Positions 29,423-40,185 of a stretch of DNA of 64,000 nt are shown here, piece by piece; the stretch's first letter is position 1; every line of letters begins with the position of its first letter. A model generated the notes under the pieces. It had not been told where the DNA came from, made no database searches, and saw only the letters and a program-made list of their open reading frames with translations. The translations under genes were made by a program, and so were the position numbers. Where the stretch lies: assembly GCF_026712245.1 (NCBI RefSeq), contig NZ_JAPPUY010000003.1, positions 186,001 to 250,000 of the forward strand, given 5' to 3'. Source of the DNA: Roseateles hydrophilus (GTDB lineage Bacteria; Pseudomonadota; Gammaproteobacteria; Burkholderiales; Burkholderiaceae_C).

Positions 29423-30079
29423 TCAGCCCGGCGCACGCCACACCAGCACCGGCCCGCCGTCGTCGATGCGCGCATGCACCGGCCGCTGGAAACCGGCGGC
29501 GCGCAGCGCGGCCAGTGCCGGCAGCGCGCGGTCGTCGGCGCGGGCCAGGCTGGCCTCGGCCGCGGCACCGAGGAAGGACAGGTAGATGGTCTGACGCGGC
29601 AGCAGCGCAGCCAGGTGGCTGCGCCAGGCCGCGCCCAGCCGGGCCTGCGCCTCGGCCGGGTCGCCGGCGTAGAAGCGCGCGCCCAGCGCCTGCCAGAACG
29701 GCGACGCGCCCGCAGCATCGCGCCAGCCCGGCAGCTCGGCCACCAGCGCGTCGCCGAAATCCTGCGGGTGCTGCTGCATGAGCGCCTGGGCGGCGGCGAT
29801 GAGCGCGCCCAGCGCGGCCGTCTGCTGCGCGGCGCCCAGGCCGGGCGCGAGCTGCAGGTCGGCCAGCTCGGCCTGGCCCGTGTGGTCGTTGCCCAGCAGC
29901 AGCGTGGTCTGCACGCGGAACAGCGCGAGCTCCTGCGCCGCGTGCACGACGCGGCCGATGTGGAAGTGGTAGCGCGGCAGCGCCAGGCCCAGCCGCGGCA
30001 CCAGCCGCAGCGACGCGCTGCCATCGGGCAGGGCCAGCCGGTGGCCATCGGCCGTGGTGTCGATGCGCAGGTCGCTCAT
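29423..30079 (-). CDS. AstA-like protein, core domain only (second arginine N-succinyltransferase subunit?)
   Basis: 218 residues, coupled to astA by an ATGA overlap. From about residue 38 to the end it aligns by eye with AstA: YHFHIGRVVHAA to AstA YSYRNEFVVHAS, then LLLGNDHTGQAELADLQL to LHLCHDLTGATLLTSFYL, ASPFWQALGARFY to QSPFWDAVGRRFF, and a final ARIDDGGPVL to VDIFDGGPTV. Compared with AstA (340 residues) it lacks about 60 residues at the N-terminus and about 90 at the C-terminus. Pseudomonads carry two full-length subunits, AruF and AruG; this gene may be a reduced partner or a degenerate paralogue. It has no frameshift or internal stop. Catalytic competence alone is doubtful. Confidence 0.7.
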   Translation of the reverse strand: MSDLRIDTTADGHRLALPDGSASLRLVPRLGLALPRYHFHIGRVVHAAQELALFRVQTTLLLGNDHTGQAELADLQLAPGLGAAQQTAALGALIAAAQALMQQHPQDFGDALVAELPGWRDAAGASPFWQALGARFYAGDPAEAQARLGAAWRSHLAALLPRQTIYLSFLGAAAEASLARADDRALPALAALRAAGFQRPVHARIDDGGPVLVWRAPG

Positions 30080-31098
30080 GCCTGGCCCTCCGGTTGCAGC
30101 GGCACGGCCAGCAGCCGCTCGCCGGCACTGGCGGCCATGGCGCCGGTGTCCTCGGGCGTGGGCTGGTCGCCCGCGCGGGCCAGCACGGCGGCGAAGCGCT
30201 CGCGCGCCGGCCGCACCAGCAGCTGCAAGCGGCGCGGGCCGTCCGCCGCCTCGGCCTGCACCGTCACCTCGCGCGCCAGCCGCACGCTGCGCAGCGAGGC
30301 CAGCGGCGCCTCCACAGTGGGGCCGCCGTCGAAGATGTCCACATAGCTGTCGGCGTCGAAGCCCTCGTCCTGCAGGATGCCGAACGGGATCTCGCCCACC
30401 GGGTGCAGCTGGCCGATGGCCCACTGCGCGGCTTCGGGCAGCAGCGCCACGTAGACGGGCGACGGCGGCATCAGCTCGGCGATGCAGGCGCGGCTGCGGC
30501 CGCCGATGACGGCCTCGGCCTCGGGGTAGTCCATGCCGAAGAAGCGCCGGCCGACGGCGTCCCAGAACGGGCTCTGGCCGGCGGCGTCGGTCACGCCGGG
30601 GCTTTCGGCCGCGATGCGCTCGGAGAAGCGCTCGGCATGCGCCTGGATGAACAGCAGCCGCGCCCGGCTCAGCAGCTGGGCGGCCGGGCCGTGTTCGTAG
30701 GCAGGGTCGAGGTAGAACGAGGTCAGCAGCGTGGCGCCGGTCAGGTCGTGGCACAGGTGCAGCGTGTGCATGCGCTGCGACACGCCCAGCGCGGCGCTCG
30801 CATGCACGACGAACTCGTTGCGGTAGCTGTAGAAGCGGTCGAAGAAGCCGGCGCTGGCGGCGATGCCCGAGCAGCCCACGAGCCGGCCGGCGCTGGTGTC
30901 CTCCAGCACGAAGAGGTAGGTCTCCTCGCCGCTGGCGTCGTCGGGGCTGGCGAAGGCCTGCAGCGACGCGGCGATGCGCCGGCGCAGCTTGGCCTCATCG
31001 TTGGGCAGCGAGCTGATCGCATCGGCGCTGGCGGCGGCCATGCGGTGCAGGTCGGCAAGGTCGGCCGCCGCCACGGGGCGCAGCAGCAGGTGGTTCAT
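30076..31098 (-). CDS. astA: Arginine N-succinyltransferase
   Basis: 340 residues from the ATG at 31098. It catalyses succinyl-CoA + L-arginine to N2-succinylarginine, the first step of the AST pathway. Family landmarks are clear: LRPVAAADLADL at the start, SYRNEFVVHASAALGV, GATLLTSFYLDP, SPFWDAVGRRFFGMDYPEA, IAELMPPSPVYVALLPEAAQ and DSYVDIFDGGP, all typical of AstA/AruG. Start and stop overlap its neighbours (ATGA on both sides), so it is translationally coupled to the ArgR-type regulator upstream and the AstA-like gene downstream. astB and astD are not in the window, so the rest of the pathway must be encoded elsewhere, or the product has another fate. Confidence 0.9.
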   Translation of the reverse strand: MNHLLLRPVAAADLADLHRMAAASADAISSLPNDEAKLRRRIAASLQAFASPDDASGEETYLFVLEDTSAGRLVGCSGIAASAGFFDRFYSYRNEFVVHASAALGVSQRMHTLHLCHDLTGATLLTSFYLDPAYEHGPAAQLLSRARLLFIQAHAERFSERIAAESPGVTDAAGQSPFWDAVGRRFFGMDYPEAEAVIGGRSRACIAELMPPSPVYVALLPEAAQWAIGQLHPVGEIPFGILQDEGFDADSYVDIFDGGPTVEAPLASLRSVRLAREVTVQAEAADGPRRLQLLVRPARERFAAVLARAGDQPTPEDTGAMAASAGERLLAVPLQPEGQA

Positions 31099-32087
31099 GA
31101 GGTCTCTCCCGTGGGGGTGCCGCTGCGCCAGGCGAGCGCGCGGCGGCTGCGCTCGTCGCGCGGCGTGTGGCCGAAGTGGGCCTTGTAGGCGTTGGAGAAA
31201 TGCGGCCCCGACGCGAAGCCGCTGGACAGGCCGATCTGCAGGATGGACTGGCTGCTCTGCTGCAGCAGCCGCTGCGCGCGGGCCAGGCGCAGCGCGAGGT
31301 AGTGGCGCGAGGGCAGCGTGTCCAGGTGCTGCTTGAACAGCCGCTCCAGCTGCCGGCGCGACACGCCCACCAGCCGTGCCACCTCCTCGGTGGGCAGCGG
31401 CTCGGCGAGGTTGGCCTCCATCAGCGCCAGCGCCTCGGCCAGCTTGGGGCTGCCGGCGCCGCGCTGCTCGCTGTAGCCGGCGCGCTGGCGCTCGTCGCGC
31501 GGCCGCAGGCCCTTCAGGCCCAGCGCCTGCGCCAGCTCCTGGCCGACGCGCTCGCCATGCTGCGCGGCCAGCCAGGCGCAGCACAGGTCCAGGCTGGCGG
31601 TGCCGCCGGCGCAGCTGAGCTGGCGGCCGTCCGCGGCGATCTCCCACAGGCCGGCCGCCCAGGCGACCGCGGGGTAGGCGTCGGCCAGCGTGTCCAGCTG
31701 CGCCCAGTCGGCGCAGGCGCGCTGGCCGTCCAGCAGGCCGGCCGCGGCCAGCGCGGCGGCGCCGGCGTCCACGCCCGCCAGCACGGCGCCCTGCGCGGCC
31801 CAGGCGCGCAACGCGGCCGACAGCAGCGGGTCGGCCGGCCCGGCCTCGGCGCTGAGCAGGAAGACGGCATGCCAGTCGGCGGCCAGCGCCCAGGGCTGGG
31901 TCAGCGCCTGCAGCCCGCTGGACGACGCCACCGGCCCGCCCGCGGCGGACAGGCAGTCGGCGCGGTAGCAGGCCTCGTCCTGCAGCGCGTTGACGGCGGC
32001 CAGGCTGTCGAGCACGCCCGCCAGCGCGAGCGCCGGGAAGCCGGGCTGCAACACCAGGCCGACACGGCGCAGCGGGGCGGGGGTCAT
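31095..32087 (-). CDS. AraC/GlxA-family regulator similar to Pseudomonas ArgR
   Basis: 330 residues. An N-terminal DJ-1/PfpI-like domain (about 5-185; VGLVLQPGFPALALAGVLDSL) precedes a double helix-turn-helix AraC domain (about 210-310; PTEEVARLVGVSRRQLERLFKQHL and FASGPHFSNAYKAHFGHTPRDE). This arrangement is that of ArgR in P. aeruginosa, which activates aru genes in response to arginine. Its position inside an arginine-catabolic operon, overlapping astA by 4 bp and 19 bp after the permease, supports the same role. Targets are likely the operon's own promoter and the divergent TonB receptor. Effector identity is inferred. Confidence 0.85.
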   Translation of the reverse strand: MTPAPLRRVGLVLQPGFPALALAGVLDSLAAVNALQDEACYRADCLSAAGGPVASSSGLQALTQPWALAADWHAVFLLSAEAGPADPLLSAALRAWAAQGAVLAGVDAGAAALAAAGLLDGQRACADWAQLDTLADAYPAVAWAAGLWEIAADGRQLSCAGGTASLDLCCAWLAAQHGERVGQELAQALGLKGLRPRDERQRAGYSEQRGAGSPKLAEALALMEANLAEPLPTEEVARLVGVSRRQLERLFKQHLDTLPSRHYLALRLARAQRLLQQSSQSILQIGLSSGFASGPHFSNAYKAHFGHTPRDERSRRALAWRSGTPTGETS

Positions 32088-32106: not shown

Positions 32107-33495
32107 TCACGCCCAGCCCATGCTGGCGGCGATGGCCAGCAGCGCCAGTGCCATGACGAGGTAGGCCGCCTGCAGCGGCAGCATCCAGCGCACCCAGGTG
32201 CCGTAGGGGATGCCCGACAGCGCCAGCACGCCCACGGTGATGCCGGACGTCGGGATGACGGCCGTCGTCAGCTCGCCGAACTGGAAGGCCAGCACGGCGG
32301 TCTGGCGCGTGATGCCCACCAGGTCGGCCAGCGGCGCCATCAGCGGCATGGTCAGCGCCGCCTGGCCGGTGCCGGAGTGGATGAAGAAGTTGATGACCGA
32401 CTGGATCAGGAACATCTTCTGCGCGGCGAACACCGGGTTCTCCGAGCCCACCAGCGGCGCCAGCGCATGCAGCATCGTGTCGATGATCTGGCCGTCGCGC
32501 AGCAGGATGACGGTGGCCTTGGCCAGCGCGATGACGAGGGCCGTGCCGACCAGGTCGCGCGCGCCGTGCAGGAAGGCGGCGACGATGTCGTCGGCCGACA
32601 GCCGCGCCACCAGCCCCACCGCGACGGCCATGACGAGGAACAGCGCGGCGATCTCCTCGATGTACCAGCCCCAGCGCACGACGCCCGCGATCATGCCCAC
32701 CAGCGTGGCGGCGAACAGCCACAGCACGGCGCGCTGGCGGCCGGTCATGCCGGCGAAGGCCTCGAAGCTGGCCAGGTCCAGCGTGCGGCGGCGCTCCTCG
32801 TCCAGCGCGAAGCTGGGGCTGAGCTCGGGCTGGCGGCGGATGCGCGCGGCCCACCACATCAGGAAGGCGATGGTCAGCCCCGTCGCGATGGCCCAGCAGA
32901 TCGCGCGGTAGCCGATGCCGGAGAACAGCGGCACGCCGGCGATGCCCTGCGCCACGCCGACGTTGAACGGGTTCAGGAAGGCGGTGGCGAAGCCCACCTG
33001 CGAGCCGACGAAGGGGATGGCCACGCCGGTCAGCGAGTCCAGCCGCAGCGCCAGCGCCAGCGGGATGAAGATCAGCACGAAGGGGATGGCCTCCTCGGCC
33101 ATGCCGAAGGTGGCGCCGCCCAGCGAGAACAGCGTGACGAAGCCAGGGATGACGGCCGCCCGCACCCACGCGGATTGCCGGTGCGCGCGGGCCACGGCCT
33201 TGATCATCGCGTCGATGGCCTCGGTCTTCTGCAGCACGGCGAACGCGCCGCCGACGATGAGCACGAAGCCGATGATGAGCGCCGCCTCCACGAAGCCCTT
33301 GATGGGCGCGGTGAGGAAGGCGACCACCCCCTGCGGCTTGGCCGCGGCGGGCTGGAAGCTGCCGGCGACGACGACCGGCTTGCCGTTGACCAGCTCGGTC
33401 TCGAAGCGGCCGCCCGGCACCACCCAGGTGGCCAGCGCAATGAGCGCCAGCAGGGCCAGCAGCAGGACGAAGGTGTTGGGGAGCTTGAGCTTCAT
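32107..33495 (-). CDS. YfcC/DcuC-family permease (candidate arginine or dipeptide transporter)
   Basis: 462 residues with about 11-12 transmembrane segments. The N-terminal LLALIALATWVVPGGRFE and the central GGATFGMAEEAIPF and GSQVGFATAFLNPFNVGVAQ motifs belong to the YfcC (DcuC superfamily) permeases; VINFFIHSGTGQAALTMPLMAPL near residue 380 is the matching C-terminal half-repeat signature. Members are found next to arginine deiminase and peptidase genes and are thought to move arginine, ornithine or small peptides, but few have been tested. Its ATG overlaps the stop of the AstE-like gene (ATGA), placing it firmly in the cyanophycinase-ast operon. Confidence 0.82.
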   Translation of the reverse strand: MKLKLPNTFVLLLALLALIALATWVVPGGRFETELVNGKPVVVAGSFQPAAAKPQGVVAFLTAPIKGFVEAALIIGFVLIVGGAFAVLQKTEAIDAMIKAVARAHRQSAWVRAAVIPGFVTLFSLGGATFGMAEEAIPFVLIFIPLALALRLDSLTGVAIPFVGSQVGFATAFLNPFNVGVAQGIAGVPLFSGIGYRAICWAIATGLTIAFLMWWAARIRRQPELSPSFALDEERRRTLDLASFEAFAGMTGRQRAVLWLFAATLVGMIAGVVRWGWYIEEIAALFLVMAVAVGLVARLSADDIVAAFLHGARDLVGTALVIALAKATVILLRDGQIIDTMLHALAPLVGSENPVFAAQKMFLIQSVINFFIHSGTGQAALTMPLMAPLADLVGITRQTAVLAFQFGELTTAVIPTSGITVGVLALSGIPYGTWVRWMLPLQAAYLVMALALLAIAASMGWA

Positions 33496-34610
33496 GGCGA
33501 CAGCAGGTTGCCGCTGCGCCACGGGGTGGCGCCGGCGATCTTCATGAGCCGCATGCCGCGCGTGGCGTAGCGGCGCGACGTGCGGGCAAAGCAGCGGCCG
33601 GCGGCGCGGGCGTGCAGCGGCGTGCGCGCATCGGACAGCGGGCAGACGAGTTCGGCCACCAGCTCGCCGGCGGCCACCCAGTCGCCTGGCGCCTTGGCGA
33701 ACACGACGACGCCGGGCACGGGCGCGGTGACCGGCTCCACGCCCTCCAGCGGCGTGGCGGCACAGGCCGGCGGCGCGGGTGCGGCGTCGCCCCGCACATG
33801 GCCGGTGTCCTGCAGAAAGGCCAGCAGCGCGTCGGCGTCCTGCTCGGCCAGCGCCTGCGACACCTCGGTCTCGCCGCGCAGCTCCACGGTGGCGGCCAGG
33901 CAGCCCAGCGGGTCGATGGGGAAGCGGCCGTCGAAGTGCGCGGCCAGCTCCCACCAGGTGCGCGCCACGGTCTCGTCGAAGGGCTCGTCGCCCGACACCT
34001 CGGCCACCAGCAGCGCCTGCGCGCCCAGCCGGGCGGCCAGCGGCGCGAGGGCCGCGGCCTGCGGCGTGGCGGTGTAGACGTGCATGACGGCCTCGTTGTC
34101 GCAGTGCAGGTCCAGCACCAGGTCGGCATCGACCGCCAGGCCTTGCAGCAGCCGCTTCAGCGCCTCGGCGGCATCGGCCGGCTGCCAGGCCTGCAGCAGC
34201 GCGGCGCTGGCCGCGCGGATGGCGCGCGCATTGGCGTCGCGGTCGGCGCCCAGCCGGCCTTCCAGCCGCGGGATGAGCGCCGCCGTCAGGTGCCTGAAGC
34301 GGCGGTTGAAGTTCAGGCCCGTGGCGAGGTCGAAGCGGCCGAAGGCGCTGCCTTGCAGGTGCTGCGCCAGGCCCAGCGGGTTGGCCATGGGCACCAGCAC
34401 GATCTCGCCGTCGATGGCGCCGGCGTCGTCCAGCGCCTGCAGCCGCTGCGCCAGCGCCTGCGCAACCAGCATGGGCGGCACCTCGTCGGCATGCAGCGCG
34501 GCCTGCAGATAGGCCTTGCGGCCGGACACGCCGCGTCCGAAGTGCAGGCTGCGCAGGCAGTGGGTGGTGCCGGCACTGGCGGCCGGCAGGTCGTGGATCA
34601 GGGTTCGCAT
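33492..34610 (-). CDS. Succinylglutamate desuccinylase/aspartoacylase family zinc hydrolase
   Basis: 372 residues, no signal peptide, so cytoplasmic. Zinc ligands are His40 and Glu43 (LHADEVPP) and His169 (LDLHCDNE); the catalytic Glu is probably Glu243 in TVELRGETEV. A C-terminal beta domain (about 285-372) with PVPGVVVFAKAPGDWVAAGELVAEL resembles the biotinyl-like barrel of the larger M14-type AstE/aspartoacylase subgroup. Canonical AstE hydrolyses N-succinylglutamate, but this is the extended, divergent subgroup. It lies between the cyanophycinase gene (12 bp gap) and the permease (ATGA overlap). Hydrolysis of beta-aspartyl-arginine or another N-acyl amino acid is an alternative to the AST role. 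Confidence 0.82.
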   Translation of the reverse strand: MRTLIHDLPAASAGTTHCLRSLHFGRGVSGRKAYLQAALHADEVPPMLVAQALAQRLQALDDAGAIDGEIVLVPMANPLGLAQHLQGSAFGRFDLATGLNFNRRFRHLTAALIPRLEGRLGADRDANARAIRAASAALLQAWQPADAAEALKRLLQGLAVDADLVLDLHCDNEAVMHVYTATPQAAALAPLAARLGAQALLVAEVSGDEPFDETVARTWWELAAHFDGRFPIDPLGCLAATVELRGETEVSQALAEQDADALLAFLQDTGHVRGDAAPAPPACAATPLEGVEPVTAPVPGVVVFAKAPGDWVAAGELVAELVCPLSDARTPLHARAAGRCFARTSRRYATRGMRLMKIAGATPWRSGNLLSP

Positions 34611-34622
34611 CGGGCAGGGCGC

Positions 34623-35849
34623 TCAGGGCGCGGTGATCGGCGTCACGAAGGGCGTGGCCACGCGCACGGGCTGCACGTCCAGCCGCGCGTTCAGCACGGT
34701 GTAGTCCTCGCCGCCCAGCGCGCCGCTGAACCAGCCCGTCAGACCCGCGCCCTTGTAGAGCCGGAACTCGAAGCCCACGTCGGGCGCAGCGTCGCCGCCG
34801 CGCGGCCGCGCGCGCCAGGCCAGGCCGCGCACCTCGGGCGCCGGGCTGTCCAGCAGCTGGGCCATCGCGGTGACGAGGGTGTTGTCGCCGAGGATGTCGA
34901 GGAAGTAGGTGTCGGCGCGCAGGTAGGGCTTGTAGTCGCTGGCGGTGGGGTCGATGCGCGGCTCGCGCAGCTTGTGCGCGGCGGGCGTGGTGACGCCGGT
35001 GGCGAGGTCGTGGCGATCGCCGCGGTCCAGGTAGCTCAGGCGTGCGCCGCGCAGGTTGAAGTGCGGCAGCCGCGCATCGCTGCTGGCGTCGGACAGGTCC
35101 ACCAGCAGCGCGCCGCGCGCGCCGATGACCTCCACCGCCGTGCCCTTGACGACGATGGCCGAGTCCTCCTCCACGCCCAGGCCCAGCCGGTAGCCGAAGG
35201 CGCGCATGGCCGGCAGCATGCGGCCGATGCGGCCGCGCTTGAGGAAGTGCTGGTCGATGAAGAGGTCGGGCCCGACGAAGCCCAACCCGCGGTCGTACTC
35301 GCGGCGCTCGCGCCAGCGGCCCTTGAGGATGTCCAGGTTGTCCTGCGCGTCGCGGAACATCATGCGGCTCATGATGGCCGCACCGGCGCTGGTGCCGGCC
35401 ACGACACCACCGCCGTCGAACACCTCGCGGATGGCCTTCAGCATCGCGGTGGGCTGGCCGCCGGGCTGCAGCGTGTCGACGATGAGCTCCTGCGCGCCGC
35501 CGGAGAAGAACACCGCGCGCGCGGCCTTGACCTGCGCGATCAGCGCGGGGTCGGCCAGCTTGGCGGCCAGGTCCACGCCGGCCAGGCGCGGCGCCACCGG
35601 GATGACTTCGGCCTGCGCGCCGCGGCGGTTCAGCGCGGCGGCGATCTGCGCACCGCTGCGCGCCGGGTTGGCGGCCGCCGTCGCGAACACGGCGATGCGC
35701 GCACCCGCGCCGCCGGCCTCATCGACGATGCGCTGCCAGACGGCGTCGTTGTCGGTTTTCAGCGCGCCGCCGATGACGATGGCCGTGCCGGCCTGCGCGG
35801 CGCCGGCGGCCAGCAAGGCGGCCAACAAAAGGGGTTTCACGAACTTCAT
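34623..35849 (-). CDS. cphE: Cyanophycinase, exported (peptidase family S51)
   Basis: 408 residues with a Sec signal peptide (MKFVKPLLLAALLAAGAAQA). The S51 fold is recognisable: IVIGGAL at the start of the mature protein, FFSGGAQ, the nucleophile Ser154 in AGTSAGAA, Gln200-His201 in DQHFLKRGR, and GLGVEEDSAIVV. These match extracellular cyanophycinases, which release beta-aspartyl-arginine dipeptides from multi-L-arginyl-poly-L-aspartate. A C-terminal region of about 100 residues beyond the catalytic domain is extra compared with cytoplasmic CphB. It is the first gene of the arginine operon and divergent from a TonB receptor. The family also contains dipeptidase E-like enzymes, but the signal peptide and QHF motif favour cyanophycinase. 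Confidence 0.88.
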   Translation of the reverse strand: MKFVKPLLLAALLAAGAAQAGTAIVIGGALKTDNDAVWQRIVDEAGGAGARIAVFATAAANPARSGAQIAAALNRRGAQAEVIPVAPRLAGVDLAAKLADPALIAQVKAARAVFFSGGAQELIVDTLQPGGQPTAMLKAIREVFDGGGVVAGTSAGAAIMSRMMFRDAQDNLDILKGRWRERREYDRGLGFVGPDLFIDQHFLKRGRIGRMLPAMRAFGYRLGLGVEEDSAIVVKGTAVEVIGARGALLVDLSDASSDARLPHFNLRGARLSYLDRGDRHDLATGVTTPAAHKLREPRIDPTASDYKPYLRADTYFLDILGDNTLVTAMAQLLDSPAPEVRGLAWRARPRGGDAAPDVGFEFRLYKGAGLTGWFSGALGGEDYTVLNARLDVQPVRVATPFVTPITAP

Positions 35850-36096
35850 GCAGCCATGTTGTCAGCGGGCCTGTGCGGCGGCCACAGGGTTGGGCCCCGC
35901 ATCGGTGCGCCATGCACCGCGGACGCAATTGCATGTCGCTTCAACGCAAGCGCTGTGGCGAGGCCGCCCGGCCCGCTTGCCGGGAAGCGACGCGCATTTG
36001 CGCGCAAGCGACCGGCGCGCCCAAACCCCATAGGCAAGTCGCGACGCGCCTCCCTAACCTGATTGGCATCCGCTCACCGCCACACCCCGAGGCCCT
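35850..36096. promoter_or_regulatory. Divergent control region between cphE and the TonB receptor
   Basis: 247 bp without a gene. It must hold both outward promoters. A perfect 10-bp palindrome TTGCGCGCAA (35998-36007) lies about 90 bp before the receptor ATG, and repeated CGCAAGCG words occur at about 35945 and 36003. I could not identify -35/-10 pairs with confidence. Confidence 0.45.
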
Positions 36097-38868
36097 ATGA
36101 CCCCAGCCCGTTCTTTCTCGCTGCACACGCTGGCCCATGCCGCGCTGCTCACCGTCACCGCGCTCACCGCGCATGCCCAGGACCAGAAGCTCGAACGCGT
36201 GGAGGTCACCGGCTCCAGCATCAAGCGCATCGACGGCGAGGCCGCGCTGCCGGTGGACGTCATCAAGCGCGCCGACATCGACAAGGCCGGCGTGACGACG
36301 GCCGCCGAGCTGCTGCAGAAGATCACGTCCAACGTCGGCGGCCTGACCGACGGCGCCAGCGTGACCGACCAGACCGGCGGCCAGCGCGGCTTCAACGGCG
36401 CCAACCTGCGCGGCCTGGGCGTGTCCAGCACGCTGGTGCTGCTGAACGGCCGGCGCCTGGCCAACTTCGCCTCGCCGGGCGACAACGCCGGCGTGGACCT
36501 GAACAACATCCCCACCGGCGCCATCCAGCGCGTGGAAGTGCTGAAGGACGGCGCCTCCGCCATCTACGGCACCGATGCGATGGGCGGCGTCATCAACTTC
36601 ATCACCCGCAAGGACTACCAAGGCGCCGACCTGAGCGTCTACGGCCTGCGCACGCAGGACGGCGGCGCCGGCAAGACGACGTTCAGCGCCTCCGGCGGCT
36701 TCGGCGACCTCGCGCGCGACCGCTTCAACGTGTTCGCCGCGCTGGACGTGCAGCAACTCGACGCGCTGGACGCCAGCCAGCGCGACTTCATCCAGGCATA
36801 CAGCCTGCCCACGCGGCTGCCGCCGCAGACGTCCAGCAACAGCTTCCCGGCCAACGTGGACCTGACGTCCGGCCAGCTCAGCGCGCTGAACGCCTTCGTG
36901 CTGGCCAACCCCAACACCGCCCTCAAGGGCAGCAACGCCAACGGCACCTGGAACCCGGGTGGCGTGAACTCCGGCTCGCGCCGCGTGAACTTCGGCAAGG
37001 CCTCGTGCACCGGCGGGCTGAACCCGAATTCCGTGCAGCCGCTGGGCCTGGGCGGCCGCGAGGGCTGCTCCTACGACTACGTCGCCGGCTCGGAGATCTA
37101 CCCCAAGTCCGACAAGGCCAGCGTCATCGGCCGCGCGACCTTGCAGCTGGCCGAGGAGCACCAGCTGTTCATCGAGGCGCTGTTCGCCAAGACCGACACC
37201 GACTACGCCGCCTCACCCGCCACGGCGCGCTTCCGCACCGCCTCGGGCATCACGCTGCCGGCGTCGCTGCAGGCCGTCACCGGCATCACCAGTGCGGTGG
37301 ATTTCCGCTTCCGCCTGGAAGACGCCGGCAAGCGCATCAGCCGCGTGGAGAGCCAGGCCACCCGCGTCGTGGCCGGCGCCAACGGCCGTTTCGCCGACTG
37401 GGACTACGACGTCGCGCTGAACCACAGCGTCAACAAAGCCACCGACACCAACCTCGACGGCTGGGTGTCACTGACAAAGCTGGAAGCCGGCATCAAGGCG
37501 GGCGCCTACAACCCCTTCCAGCGTGCCAGCGACGCCAGCGCCGGCCGCGCCTTCATGAACAGCATCCGCATCGACGGCGCCGCGCGCATCGCCGAGGGCA
37601 GCAGCACCAGCCTGGACGGCAAGCTGACCCGCGCGCTCACCACGCTGGCCGGCGGCGACCTGATGCTGGCCGTGGGCGCCGAGCTGCGCCGCGAGAAGCT
37701 GCAGTTCCGCGCGACCGATGCGCTCAAGAGCAACGACGTCAACAACGACCGCTCCAGCTCCGGCCCGCTGCTGGCCGACACCGACCACCACCGCGACGTG
37801 ATGGGCGCCTTCGCCGAGCTGAGCGCGCCGTTCACCAAGCAGTGGGAAGGCCAGTTGGCGCTGCGCCACGACCGCTACGACGGCATCTACGACGCCGCCA
37901 CCAACACCACGTCGCCCAAGCTCAACACCACCAACCCCAAGCTGGGCCTGAGCTTCCGCCCCGACCGCACGCTGCTGGCGCGCGCGTCCTACGGCACCGG
38001 CTTCCGTGCGCCGACGGTGTCGGAGCTGTTCCGCCCGCTGCGCTCCGGCATCACGGCCAGCTTCGTGAAGGACCCGGTGTCCGGCGAGGTCGCGCAGATG
38101 GCGGTGGACCGCTACTCCAACCCGGCGCTCAAGCCCGAGAAGAGCAAGCAGTTCAACATCGGCATGGTGTTCGAGCCGAACAAGCAGTGGAACGGCAGCG
38201 TCGACTACTGGGCCATCCGCAAGACCGACATCATTTCCGAGATCGGCGAGGAGACCATCTTCACCAACCCGATCTACTACAACGACCCCACCATCGTGAA
38301 GCGCTTCTCCGACGGCTTCGTCGAGTTCGTCAACGTGAAGAAGGAGAACCGCGGCAAGCTCGACACCTCGGGCCTGGACGTGTCGCTGGCCTGGCGCGGC
38401 GAGAACACCGCCTACGGCCGCTTCGGCGCCAGCCTGGCGGGCACGCTGATCACCGAGTACAAGTTCAACACCGACCCGCGCTCGCCCATGGTGGACGGCC
38501 TGGGCAAGTTCCGCGACGACAAGGCCGTGCAACGCTGGCGCCACAAGCTCAGCGTGGACTGGGACCTGCGCGACGTCGGCCTGACGCTGGCCAACACCTA
38601 CCTGTCCGGCTACCGCGACCAGAACACGCCGGGCCTGGCCGCGCCGGAATGGAACGACCGCGACGTGAAGCCCTACTCGCTGTGGGACCTGACGGGCAGC
38701 TACCGCATCACGCCGCAGCTGCGCCTGCGCGCCGGCGTGCTGAACCTGGCCGACACGGCCCCGCCGTTCACCAACCAGTCGCGCTACTTCCAGGTCACCT
38801 GGGACCCGACCTATGGTGACCCGCGCGGCCGCAGCTACTTCGTCAGCCTGAGCTACGCGATGCGCTGA
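36097..38868 (+). CDS. TonB-dependent receptor, candidate for cyanophycin fragments or basic peptides
   Basis: 923 residues. A signal peptide ends LTAHAQ near residue 28, followed by a TonB-box-like LERVEVTG, then a plug domain with ELLQKITSNVGG, GANLRGLGVSSTLVLLNGRRLA and VEVLKDGASAIYGTDAMGGVINFIT, typical of the iron/peptide/vitamin-type receptors seen in Xanthomonadales and Burkholderiales. The barrel fills the rest and ends SYFVSLSYAMR. It is divergent from the cyanophycinase operon, which suggests uptake of beta-Asp-Arg peptides or related nitrogen polymers. No siderophore genes are nearby. Ligand is inference from context only. Confidence 0.88.
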   Translation: MTPARSFSLHTLAHAALLTVTALTAHAQDQKLERVEVTGSSIKRIDGEAALPVDVIKRADIDKAGVTTAAELLQKITSNVGGLTDGASVTDQTGGQRGFNGANLRGLGVSSTLVLLNGRRLANFASPGDNAGVDLNNIPTGAIQRVEVLKDGASAIYGTDAMGGVINFITRKDYQGADLSVYGLRTQDGGAGKTTFSASGGFGDLARDRFNVFAALDVQQLDALDASQRDFIQAYSLPTRLPPQTSSNSFPANVDLTSGQLSALNAFVLANPNTALKGSNANGTWNPGGVNSGSRRVNFGKASCTGGLNPNSVQPLGLGGREGCSYDYVAGSEIYPKSDKASVIGRATLQLAEEHQLFIEALFAKTDTDYAASPATARFRTASGITLPASLQAVTGITSAVDFRFRLEDAGKRISRVESQATRVVAGANGRFADWDYDVALNHSVNKATDTNLDGWVSLTKLEAGIKAGAYNPFQRASDASAGRAFMNSIRIDGAARIAEGSSTSLDGKLTRALTTLAGGDLMLAVGAELRREKLQFRATDALKSNDVNNDRSSSGPLLADTDHHRDVMGAFAELSAPFTKQWEGQLALRHDRYDGIYDAATNTTSPKLNTTNPKLGLSFRPDRTLLARASYGTGFRAPTVSELFRPLRSGITASFVKDPVSGEVAQMAVDRYSNPALKPEKSKQFNIGMVFEPNKQWNGSVDYWAIRKTDIISEIGEETIFTNPIYYNDPTIVKRFSDGFVEFVNVKKENRGKLDTSGLDVSLAWRGENTAYGRFGASLAGTLITEYKFNTDPRSPMVDGLGKFRDDKAVQRWRHKLSVDWDLRDVGLTLANTYLSGYRDQNTPGLAAPEWNDRDVKPYSLWDLTGSYRITPQLRLRAGVLNLADTAPPFTNQSRYFQVTWDPTYGDPRGRSYFVSLSYAMR

Positions 38869-38880
38869 AGGGCCGCGGCC

Positions 38881-38928
38881 TGAACCGGGGCGGGCATCGG
38901 GCGCCGCACCGGTTCACGCACCGGTTCA
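38881..38928. repeat. TGAACCGG inverted/direct repeats between convergent genes
   Basis: TGAACCGG at 38881-38888 pairs with CCGGTTCA at 38909-38916 or at 38921-38928; the last copy overlaps the sigma-factor stop codon. The mutually exclusive 8-bp stems could terminate or protect both convergent transcripts, though neither has a T-tract. Confidence 0.4.
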
Positions 38929-40185
38929 GTTGGCCAGGCGCGTCGCCCGCTCCAGCAGCAGCGCGCGCTGCACCTCGTTGTGCTGCAGCTCCGCAGCGCG
39001 CAGGTAGGCCTCACGGGCCTCGGTCACGCGGCCCAGGCGCTCCAGCACATCGGCCTGGGCGCCGGCCAGGTAGGGGTAGCGCTGCAGCTGCGGCTCGGCG
39101 GCCAGCGCGTCCAGCAGCGGCAGCGCGGCGGCCGGGCCGTCGGCGAAGCTGATGGCCAGCGCGCGGTTCAGCGCGATGACGGGCGAGGGGTTCAGCGCCA
39201 GCAGGCGGTCATAGCCCTGCACGATGGCGCGCCAGTCGGTGTCCTCGGCGCGCGCCGCGCGCGCATGGCAGGCCGCGATGGACGCCTGCAGCGTGTACGG
39301 CCCGGGCTCGCCCAGCGCCAGCGCTTGCGTGAGCGCCGCCAGGCCGCGCTGGATGAGCAGGCGGTCCCACTTGCGACGGTCCTGGTCGGGCAACAGCACG
39401 GGGCGGCCTGCGGCGTCCAGCCGCGCGGGCAGGCGCGAGGCCTGGATCTCCAGCAACGCGGCCAGGCCGTGCACCTCGCCGTCCTGCGGCAGCAGGTGCT
39501 GCAGCTGGCGGGCCAGGCGCAGGGCTTCGTCGCACAGCGCCGGGCGCAGCAGCGTCGCGCCGCTGCCGGCGCTGTGGCCCTCGTTGAAGATCAGGTAGAC
39601 CACGGCCAGCACGGCGCCCAGGCGCTGCTCGCGCTCCTCGGCCGGCGGCAGCTCATAGGCCTGGCCGTTGAGCGCCTTCTTGGCGCGCACGATGCGCTGC
39701 GCGACGGTGGCCTCGGGCTGCAGGAAGGCCCGGGCGATCTCGGCGGTCTCCAGCCCGCCCAGCAGTCGCAGCGTCAGCGCCACCTGCGCCTCGCGCGGCA
39801 GCACGGGGTGGCAGGCGATGAAGATGAGCCGCAGCAGCTCGTCGCCGATGGCGGCCTGGTCGCGCGCGGCGTCGAGCTGCTCGGTGAAGTCGGGCACGAC
39901 GTGGGTGCCATAGGCCGCGTCGTCGGCCGCGAGGTGCTCATGCTCGCGCGCCAGCATCGCGCGGCGGCGCAGCCGGTCCAGCGCCTTGTTGCGGGTGGCG
40001 GTCATCAGCCACGCGGCCGGGTTGGCGGGCTGGCCGTCGCGCGGCCAGCTGTCCAGCGCGGCGATGAGGGCGTCCTGCGCGCAGTCCTCGGCCTCGTCCA
40101 GGTCGTGCAGCAGCTTGGCCGCCGCGCCGACAAGGCGGCTGCGCTCCAGGCGCCAGACGCCGGCGGCGATGTCGGCATGGCTCAC
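38926..40185 (-). CDS. ECF RNA polymerase sigma factor, ECF42-type with C-terminal TPR-like extension
   Basis: 419 residues, far longer than a standard ECF sigma factor of about 190. Residues of about 10-85 are region 2 (DLDEAEDCAQDALIAALDSWP, NPAAWLMTATRNKALDRLRR); about 115-175 is region 4 (REAQVALTLRLLGGLETAEIARAFL and VAQRIVRAKKAL). From about 190 to the end is a helical DUF6596/TPR-like domain (AVVYLIFNEGHSA, NPSPVIALNRALAISFADG). No anti-sigma gene is present. The architecture and five upstream genes, including two DGPF proteins, match the ECF42 group, whose C-terminal domain is thought to control activity. It is the last gene of the cluster, 4 bp after the upstream stop. Confidence 0.9.
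   Translation of the reverse strand: MSHADIAAGVWRLERSRLVGAAAKLLHDLDEAEDCAQDALIAALDSWPRDGQPANPAAWLMTATRNKALDRLRRRAMLAREHEHLAADDAAYGTHVVPDFTEQLDAARDQAAIGDELLRLIFIACHPVLPREAQVALTLRLLGGLETAEIARAFLQPEATVAQRIVRAKKALNGQAYELPPAEEREQRLGAVLAVVYLIFNEGHSAGSGATLLRPALCDEALRLARQLQHLLPQDGEVHGLAALLEIQASRLPARLDAAGRPVLLPDQDRRKWDRLLIQRGLAALTQALALGEPGPYTLQASIAACHARAARAEDTDWRAIVQGYDRLLALNPSPVIALNRALAISFADGPAAALPLLDALAAEPQLQRYPYLAGAQADVLERLGRVTEAREAYLRAAELQHNEVQRALLLERATRLAN

Follow-up and report, generated by a model that had tools for sequence, protein, structure and literature searches.

What is an operon for that joins an exported cyanophycinase to an arginine-type regulator and two AstA genes? We asked this of a 64,000-nt stretch of the Roseateles hydrophilus genome (GCF_026712245.1, contig NZ_JAPPUY010000003.1, positions 186,001 to 250,000 of the forward strand; hereafter the window), which belongs to a genome (G000 in our sample) that is 98.66% complete. 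The operon lies on the minus strand from 35849 to 29423 and comprises, in order of transcription, cphE and the genes for an AstE-like, CphZ-like hydrolase, a permease, a regulator of the ArgR type, AstA-alpha, and AstA-beta, with ATGA overlaps at three junctions (CphZ/permease, ArgR/AstA-alpha, and AstA-alpha/AstA-beta). Its best reading, which we hold to be very probable, is an arginine-responsive operon of a betaproteobacterium for scavenging cyanophycin, a polymer in which other microbes store nitrogen. A preliminary description of the locus had listed these genes together with a divergent TonB receptor, and profile and open reading frame evidence recovered all of them; its coordinates (34623–38868) span only cphE and the receptor gene, whereas the operon runs on to 29423. 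The sequence likewise supports its picture of an exported cyanophycinase, a receptor, an inner-membrane permease, and an ArgR-type regulator around one co-directional operon.

Predicted cyanophycin cleavage and arginine control

The first gene, cphE (34623–35849, minus strand), encodes a cyanophycinase that carries a Sec-type signal peptide, as judged by eye, and is extended at its C-terminus by some 150 additional residues. CphE matches Peptidase_S51 (PF03575) at 33.4 bits (cut-off 23.9) and the cyanophycinase model TIGR02069 at 126.6 bits (cut-off 126.6). It aligns to the solved cyanophycinases 7UQV and 3EN0, including the GTSAGA nucleophile motif and the DQHF region, which we take to hold the catalytic residues. 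Three further copies, 75, 64, and 56% identical to CphE, are encoded in the same genome (G000:C6:131351-132544; G000:C10:95268-97784; L042, L043). The two on C10 stand in tandem, divergent from a TonB receptor gene of their own, with no ArgR or AstA matches nearby.

The preliminary description saw no recognisable isoaspartyl dipeptidase, a statement that does not hold for the gene directly behind cphE (33492–34610, minus strand). Its product matches AstE_AspA_cat (PF24827), and its closest solved relatives are 8EIN (E 1.6e-66) and 8EIP (E 1.1e-65), both deposited as 'Succinylglutamate desuccinylase' and presumably CphZ; the next two solved AstE relatives reach only E 2e-19 and 5e-19. All 24 aligned sequences share H40, E43, H169, and E243, the last of which falls at the site where 8EIN differs from 8EIP (Glu to Ala). 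We take H40, E43, and H169 (HxxE plus His) to be the metal site, and assume a role for E243 as well. The AstE-like protein thus falls among the cyanophycin dipeptide hydrolases described in recent work and is a predicted beta-Asp-Arg dipeptidase. CphZ-like matches were also found in 49 records of a plasmid collection, and weak CphE-like matches in 21.

The regulator (31095–32087, minus strand) belongs to the AraC family, Pseudomonas ArgR type (helix-turn-helix domain PF12833; best NCBIfam match GbdR, 223.6 bits against a cut-off of 480). According to PMC10963909, the ARG box of P. aeruginosa is TGTCGCN6GNAA, in tandem, 5 bp apart. Between cphE and the receptor gene, we found GTCGCN8AA twice on the cphE strand without mismatch and with a 21-bp period (two ARG-box-like half-sites facing cphE, 35977–36013, minus strand; first base G and C, not T), a pair also found independently as a direct repeat. 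Facing the receptor gene is a single ARG-box-like site, TGTCGCTTCAACGCAA (35934–35949, plus strand), which matches the consensus. Allowing up to one mismatch, 0.02 occurrences of the tandem pattern would be expected in the window, and two of 100 shuffles had one.

Comparing 89 upstream regions, all different in sequence (cphE matches starting past residue 40 or below 150 bits were excluded), revealed the tandem pair in 19 of 32 ArgR-bearing regions, the window included, versus 3 of 57 others, and in none of 100 dinucleotide shuffles. As for the three exceptions, L055 and L177 stop at a contig end before the place of the ArgR gene, and L079 comes from a genome (G011) with its ArgR on another contig. 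The ARG boxes beside cphE track with the ArgR-type gene and are predicted operator sites.

Transport module, distribution, and the probable substrate of the operon

The divergent receptor gene (36097–38868, plus strand) encodes a TonB-dependent receptor with PF07715 and PF00593 over cut-off. Dedicated TonB/ExbBD genes beside it were considered and rejected, the recurrent neighbours in L045 being a short-chain dehydrogenase/reductase, DUF480, a thioesterase, and an electron transfer flavoprotein-ubiquinone oxidoreductase. Directly downstream of the window's receptor gene, on the opposite strand, lies an RNA polymerase sigma factor-like gene (38926–40185, read by eye).

The inner-membrane permease (32107–33495, minus strand) is of the DcuC/YfcC type. 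It matches DcuC (PF03606) at 332.9 bits and the YfcC equivalog NF008611 at 366, under the cut-off of 500, and had no solved relative at E 0.01 in a comparison with the PDB. Across 80 named CphZ loci (here and below, the best 80 of at least 579 matches), a YfcC-type permease adjoined CphZ in 27 and an ATP-binding cassette (ABC) transporter in 31, while none had both and 22 had neither. The ABC variant is an arginine/ornithine/histidine-type importer by family, usually ordered AotJ-Q-M before and AotP after CphZ. The window's permease occupies the place held by this importer in sister operons, and AotJQMP genes around CphZ were not found in the window. Window-like arrangements among the named loci come from Roseateles (L136, L138) and Mitsuaria (L137, where the contig ends before AstA). 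Another arrangement, in which CphZ-YfcC is close to CphE and a receptor but ArgR and AstA are missing, was seen in 21 of the 80, from Massilia, Duganella, Pseudoduganella, Janthinobacterium, Rugamonas, Undibacterium, and 'Oxalobacteraceae'. In L140, L141, L143, L144, L146–L149, and other Oxalobacteraceae loci, CphZ-YfcC lies by the receptor, and the opposite strand bears one or two CphE genes; several Oxalobacteraceae loci have 1.2–1.6 kb without annotation between receptor and CphZ. We found no open-licence paper linking YfcC with cyanophycin.

We compared forty loci (38 from relatives and the two paralogous cphE loci of the window's own genome), twenty more stretches, and a family sample of 250 genomes from 141 genera, in which CphE matches were counted at E up to 1e-10. 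The set recurs: CphE-[transport]-CphZ-ArgR-AstA-AstA2 stands beside a receptor in many genera, in loci of like make-up. CphE occurs in 58 of the 250 genomes and AstA in 25 (15 of 141 genera), and all 25 carry cphE, a restriction with P 1e-18 if relatedness is ignored. The 36 fetched ArgR-bearing loci other than the window include 31 with cphE, 28 with a divergent receptor, and 11 with the exact gene order of the window, the commonest. A miniature version, receptor/CphE-ArgR-AstA-AstA2 without CphZ or transporter matches, was seen at L127:8863-12826 as a second copy in G111, which has the full set at L061.

Taken together as a pathway, exported CphE would cut cyanophycin to beta-Asp-Arg, the TonB receptor would carry soluble polymer pieces or the dipeptide across the outer membrane, and the DcuC/YfcC permease, standing in for the AotJQM-P-type ABC importer of sister operons, would take beta-Asp-Arg (or arginine) across the inner membrane to the cytoplasm. 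CphZ would then split beta-Asp-Arg into Asp and Arg, and the ArgR-type regulator may sense the released arginine and act on the ARG boxes located between the divergent cphE and receptor genes.

Several observations weigh against cyanophycin scavenging under arginine control. CphE meets TIGR02069 only exactly at its cut-off, and cyanophycin granules are insoluble, which raises the question of what would cross the receptor. CphZ alone does not imply a cyanophycin system, because, within the distances applied, 20 of the 80 named loci had neither tested transporter and none of cphE, receptor, ArgR, and AstA, and a further 23 had ABC genes only. AstA is missing from 33 of the 58 cphE genomes, including three of the four sampled from the window's genus, which have cphE alone; the window's genome is the only AstA carrier of the four. 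A genome-wide scan for the tandem pattern at up to one mismatch gave 12 matches, two of them exact, against 30 for a reversed control, and therefore does not define a regulon. Finally, the loci are related and not independent, and P values therefore overstate the associations.

Turnover of the cell's own polymer may also play a part. The window's genome encodes a CphA over the TIGR02068 cut-off beside a shorter CphA'-like gene (L231:8843-13601, G000:C6), and the organism probably makes cyanophycin itself. That the operon recycles this cyanophycin, from periplasmic spill or lysed siblings, instead of foreign polymer is nevertheless improbable. In favour are the adjacent CphA and CphA' genes and the frequency of CphA over cut-off (152 of 250 family genomes; 20 of the 25 with AstA). 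However, CphE bears an export signal, whereas the product of CphA is cytosolic, and own granules need no TonB receptor. In addition, four of the 25 AstA genomes (G011, G140, G143, G224) have no cyanophycin synthetase match better than 1e-12 to 1e-27, so that the operon also occurs without own polymer, and a fifth, G160, stays below cut-off. An operon for general uptake of arginine or arginyl peptides, with cyanophycin incidental, is more improbable still: the ABC version is arginine-type by family, the regulator belongs to a kind that responds to arginine, and in Pseudomonas ordinary arginine genes are under ARG-box control (PMC10963909), but cphE (31/36) and a divergent receptor (28/36) accompany most ArgR-bearing loci and the hydrolase is much closer to 8EIN/8EIP (E 1e-66) than to other solved AstE relatives (1e-19).

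An AstA pair outside the arginine succinyltransferase pathway

The operon ends with AstA-alpha (30076–31098, minus strand), an AstA/AruF-like subunit, and AstA-beta (29423–30079, minus strand), a short AstA/AruG derivative. Both match AstA (PF04958), alpha at 353.8 and beta at 124 bits, the latter with profile positions 77–260 of 337 only. The preliminary description assigned AstA to the first arginine-degrading step. This could not be upheld: AstB (PF04996) and the AstE hybrid domain (PF04952) were not found in the window's genome, with positive E. coli controls for both, and AstD was not found over cut-off (TIGR03240, best 263.9 against 579.3). AstA can therefore not feed the standard arginine succinyltransferase (AST) pathway, and AST catabolism as in Pseudomonas was rejected. 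By profile search, AstB over cut-off was found in none of the 250 family genomes. In a class sample, AstA without AstB occurred in 7 of 29 AstA genomes besides the window's (two of the 7 are 67 and 85% complete), and AstA was the sole match in the seven corresponding stretches (L119–L124, L134). Three of these (L121, L122, L124; from another family, f116) carry a single AstA in AstB-less genomes, with no CphE or CphZ match in the stretches, possibly another use outside AST.

Alpha is of full length (340 aa) and matches PDB entry 1YLE (E 2e-91). It scores 382.3 against the 458.8 of TIGR03245, a weak test for this subunit, since alphas from operons with AstB fall short of the cut-off too (L171, 447.1; L116, 348.2). 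Beta, at 218 aa, scores 121.1 against the 391 of TIGR03244, which the betas of L171 and L116 pass (431.4 and 416.9). The window thus does not encode an AruF/AruG pair with both subunits of full length. Betas of 339–353 aa were found in five fetched pair operons with AstB in the stretch or genome (L116, L117, L170, L171, L201), and betas of 200–292 aa in the 31 rows of the window's type. In two relatives (L047:2825-4276 and L048:2776-4200), a divergent cyanophycinase-like gene, 28–33% identical to CphE, lies directly behind AstA-beta.

Phylogenetic analysis covered 99 AstA proteins, 97 of them different (L073 and L169 are identical for each subunit), in a tree midpoint-rooted for drawing; 27 of 126 rows were excluded, 19 as wrong-frame, fragment, or duplicate, plus all rows of L119–L124, L129, and L130, which repeat L087–L113. 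The short betas formed one group (31 rows, 100/97). The 31 alphas from operons lacking AstB also grouped together, on a branch that is not one of the best supported (96/76), next to L171/L201. These two operons, from betaproteobacterial and Rhodocyclaceae metagenome-assembled genomes, carry a receptor, CphE, AotJQM, CphZ, AotP, ArgR, AruC, AruF, a full-length AruG, AruD, and AstB, with AruC, AruD, and AstB over their cut-offs. L170 (Chitinimonas) reads AotJQM-CphZ-AotP-ArgR-AruF-AruG-AstB, and open reading frames at the places of aruC and aruD have the size expected of these genes. CphE and a receptor were not found within this stretch. The window's operon is probably a trimmed descendant of such a cphE-bearing aot-argR-aru operon, in which aruC, aruD, and aruB would have been lost and beta shortened. 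The AstA pair, putatively an acyl-CoA:arginine or ornithine N-acyltransferase, would have been retained from the ancestral cphE-aot-argR-aruCFGDB after the rest of AST was lost.

An arginase in the window's genome passes TIGR01229 (289.4 against 227.6), so ornithine is available and may be supplied to the pair. A bypass in which the pair succinylates this ornithine and non-orthologous enzymes complete a route to glutamate is possible, and we offer it tentatively. It gains from Acinetobacter AstO, an AstA homologue required for ornithine use (PMC12375414), though the same source gives Acinetobacter a complete AST operon as well, and the AstD score and missing AstE hybrid domain reported above speak against such a route here.

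L125 and H229 are predicted catalytic residues of Acinetobacter AstA in PMC12375414; we matched their numbering from primer sequences in a table there and a neighbouring motif. The L125 column holds F in 31/31 cyanophycin-type alphas and L in 20/31 short betas. The H229 column holds H in 30/31 alphas and 3/31 short betas, and in only 18/25 single AstA proteins, which weakens the assignment or the local alignment. A Glu in the L125 strand is present in 31/31 single AstA proteins and full betas and in 30/31 short betas, and absent from all alphas. Conversely, all 31 alphas retain Arg7, Asp13, and Arg147 (alpha numbering), while the first two are gapped in 26/31 short betas and the third is Arg in none of the 31. 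Such partly complementary losses would fit one active site built from both chains. Alpha and short beta might form a distinct heteromeric acyltransferase off the AST pathway, with a shared active site and working within the cyanophycin system, a rather doubtful proposal as it stands. One conceivable role is acylation of the freed arginine: the product, N-succinylarginine, is beta-Asp-Arg without its amino group (the desamino analogue) and might reset ArgR, direct CphZ, or be the counter-substrate of the permease.

We also considered, and rejected, that AstA-beta is a pseudogene or the product of a local frameshift, given its single tree group and the ratios of nonsynonymous to synonymous change (dN/dS) in seven pairs of closer relatives. 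That the pair are decaying, functionless leftovers is quite unlikely: AstB, AstD, and AstE are absent, beta is truncated and fast-evolving, its pN/pS between the window and seven relatives is 0.52–0.77 (with ArgR at 0.59–0.73 the operon's two highest), and the predicted catalytic His is rare in short betas, but dN/dS is 0.04–0.37 for beta and 0.06–0.19 for alpha, pN/pS of alpha is 0.39–0.51, both genes are retained together in 25 of 25 AstA genomes of the family, the structure model of beta reaches a predicted local distance difference test score of 88.6, and the conserved residues lost differ between the subunits.

Comparison with known systems

Pseudomonas carries an operon ordered aotJQMOP-argR-aruCFGDBE. 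The window shares CphZ, ArgR, AruF, and AruG in the same order; in contrast, it adds CphE and the receptor, has a single permease for the ABC importer, lacks aruC, aruD, aruB, and aruE, and has a truncated beta. The order J-Q-M-CphZ-P was found in 9 of 9 named Pseudomonas loci, with no ArgR or AstA match in those stretches. The gene combination, which the preliminary description did not know as described, is hence partly known in its core.

As in the CphZ clusters of Sharon and Schmeing 2023 (PMC10206079), the M14 hydrolase of AstE/AspA type adjoins a cyanophycinase; unlike the clusters described there, the window adds an export signal on the cyanophycinase, a TonB receptor, a DcuC/YfcC permease, an ArgR-type regulator, and the AstA pair. 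The 'Cyanophycin utilization locus' of L21-Spi-D4 (Ben Hania et al., as cited in PMC10206079) likewise combines cyanophycinase, dipeptidase, and transporter for scavenging, but with iadA as the dipeptidase where the window has CphZ. A TonB receptor near a cyanophycinase, with cyanophycin uptake proposed, is described for Citromicrobium JLT1363 (PMC3400609), where the ArgR/AstA/CphZ context of the window was not seen in the available text. Acinetobacter astNOP (PMC12375414), an incomplete additional AST locus that includes a permease and a homologue of AstA, resembles the window in these features and differs in that a complete AST operon exists elsewhere in the genome, whereas AstB is absent here.

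In the open-licence literature we did not meet a receptor, an exported cyanophycinase, a permease swap, ARG boxes, and an orphan acyltransferase together. The parts and much of the gene order are already known from the CphZ clusters and the Pseudomonas aot-aru operon; new are the tandem ArgR boxes in the gap that separates cphE from the receptor gene, the exchange of permease and ABC importer, and an AstA pair kept without AstB, which raises the question of why a two-subunit arginine/ornithine acyltransferase is kept without a known route for its product. In this locus, polymer-level use of cyanophycin, through cyanophycinase and TonB receptor, is combined in a single unit with an arginine regulator, CphZ, and predicted operator sites; the locus also presents the inner-membrane importer as an exchangeable module, with the YfcC-type protein as a candidate beta-Asp-Arg permease.

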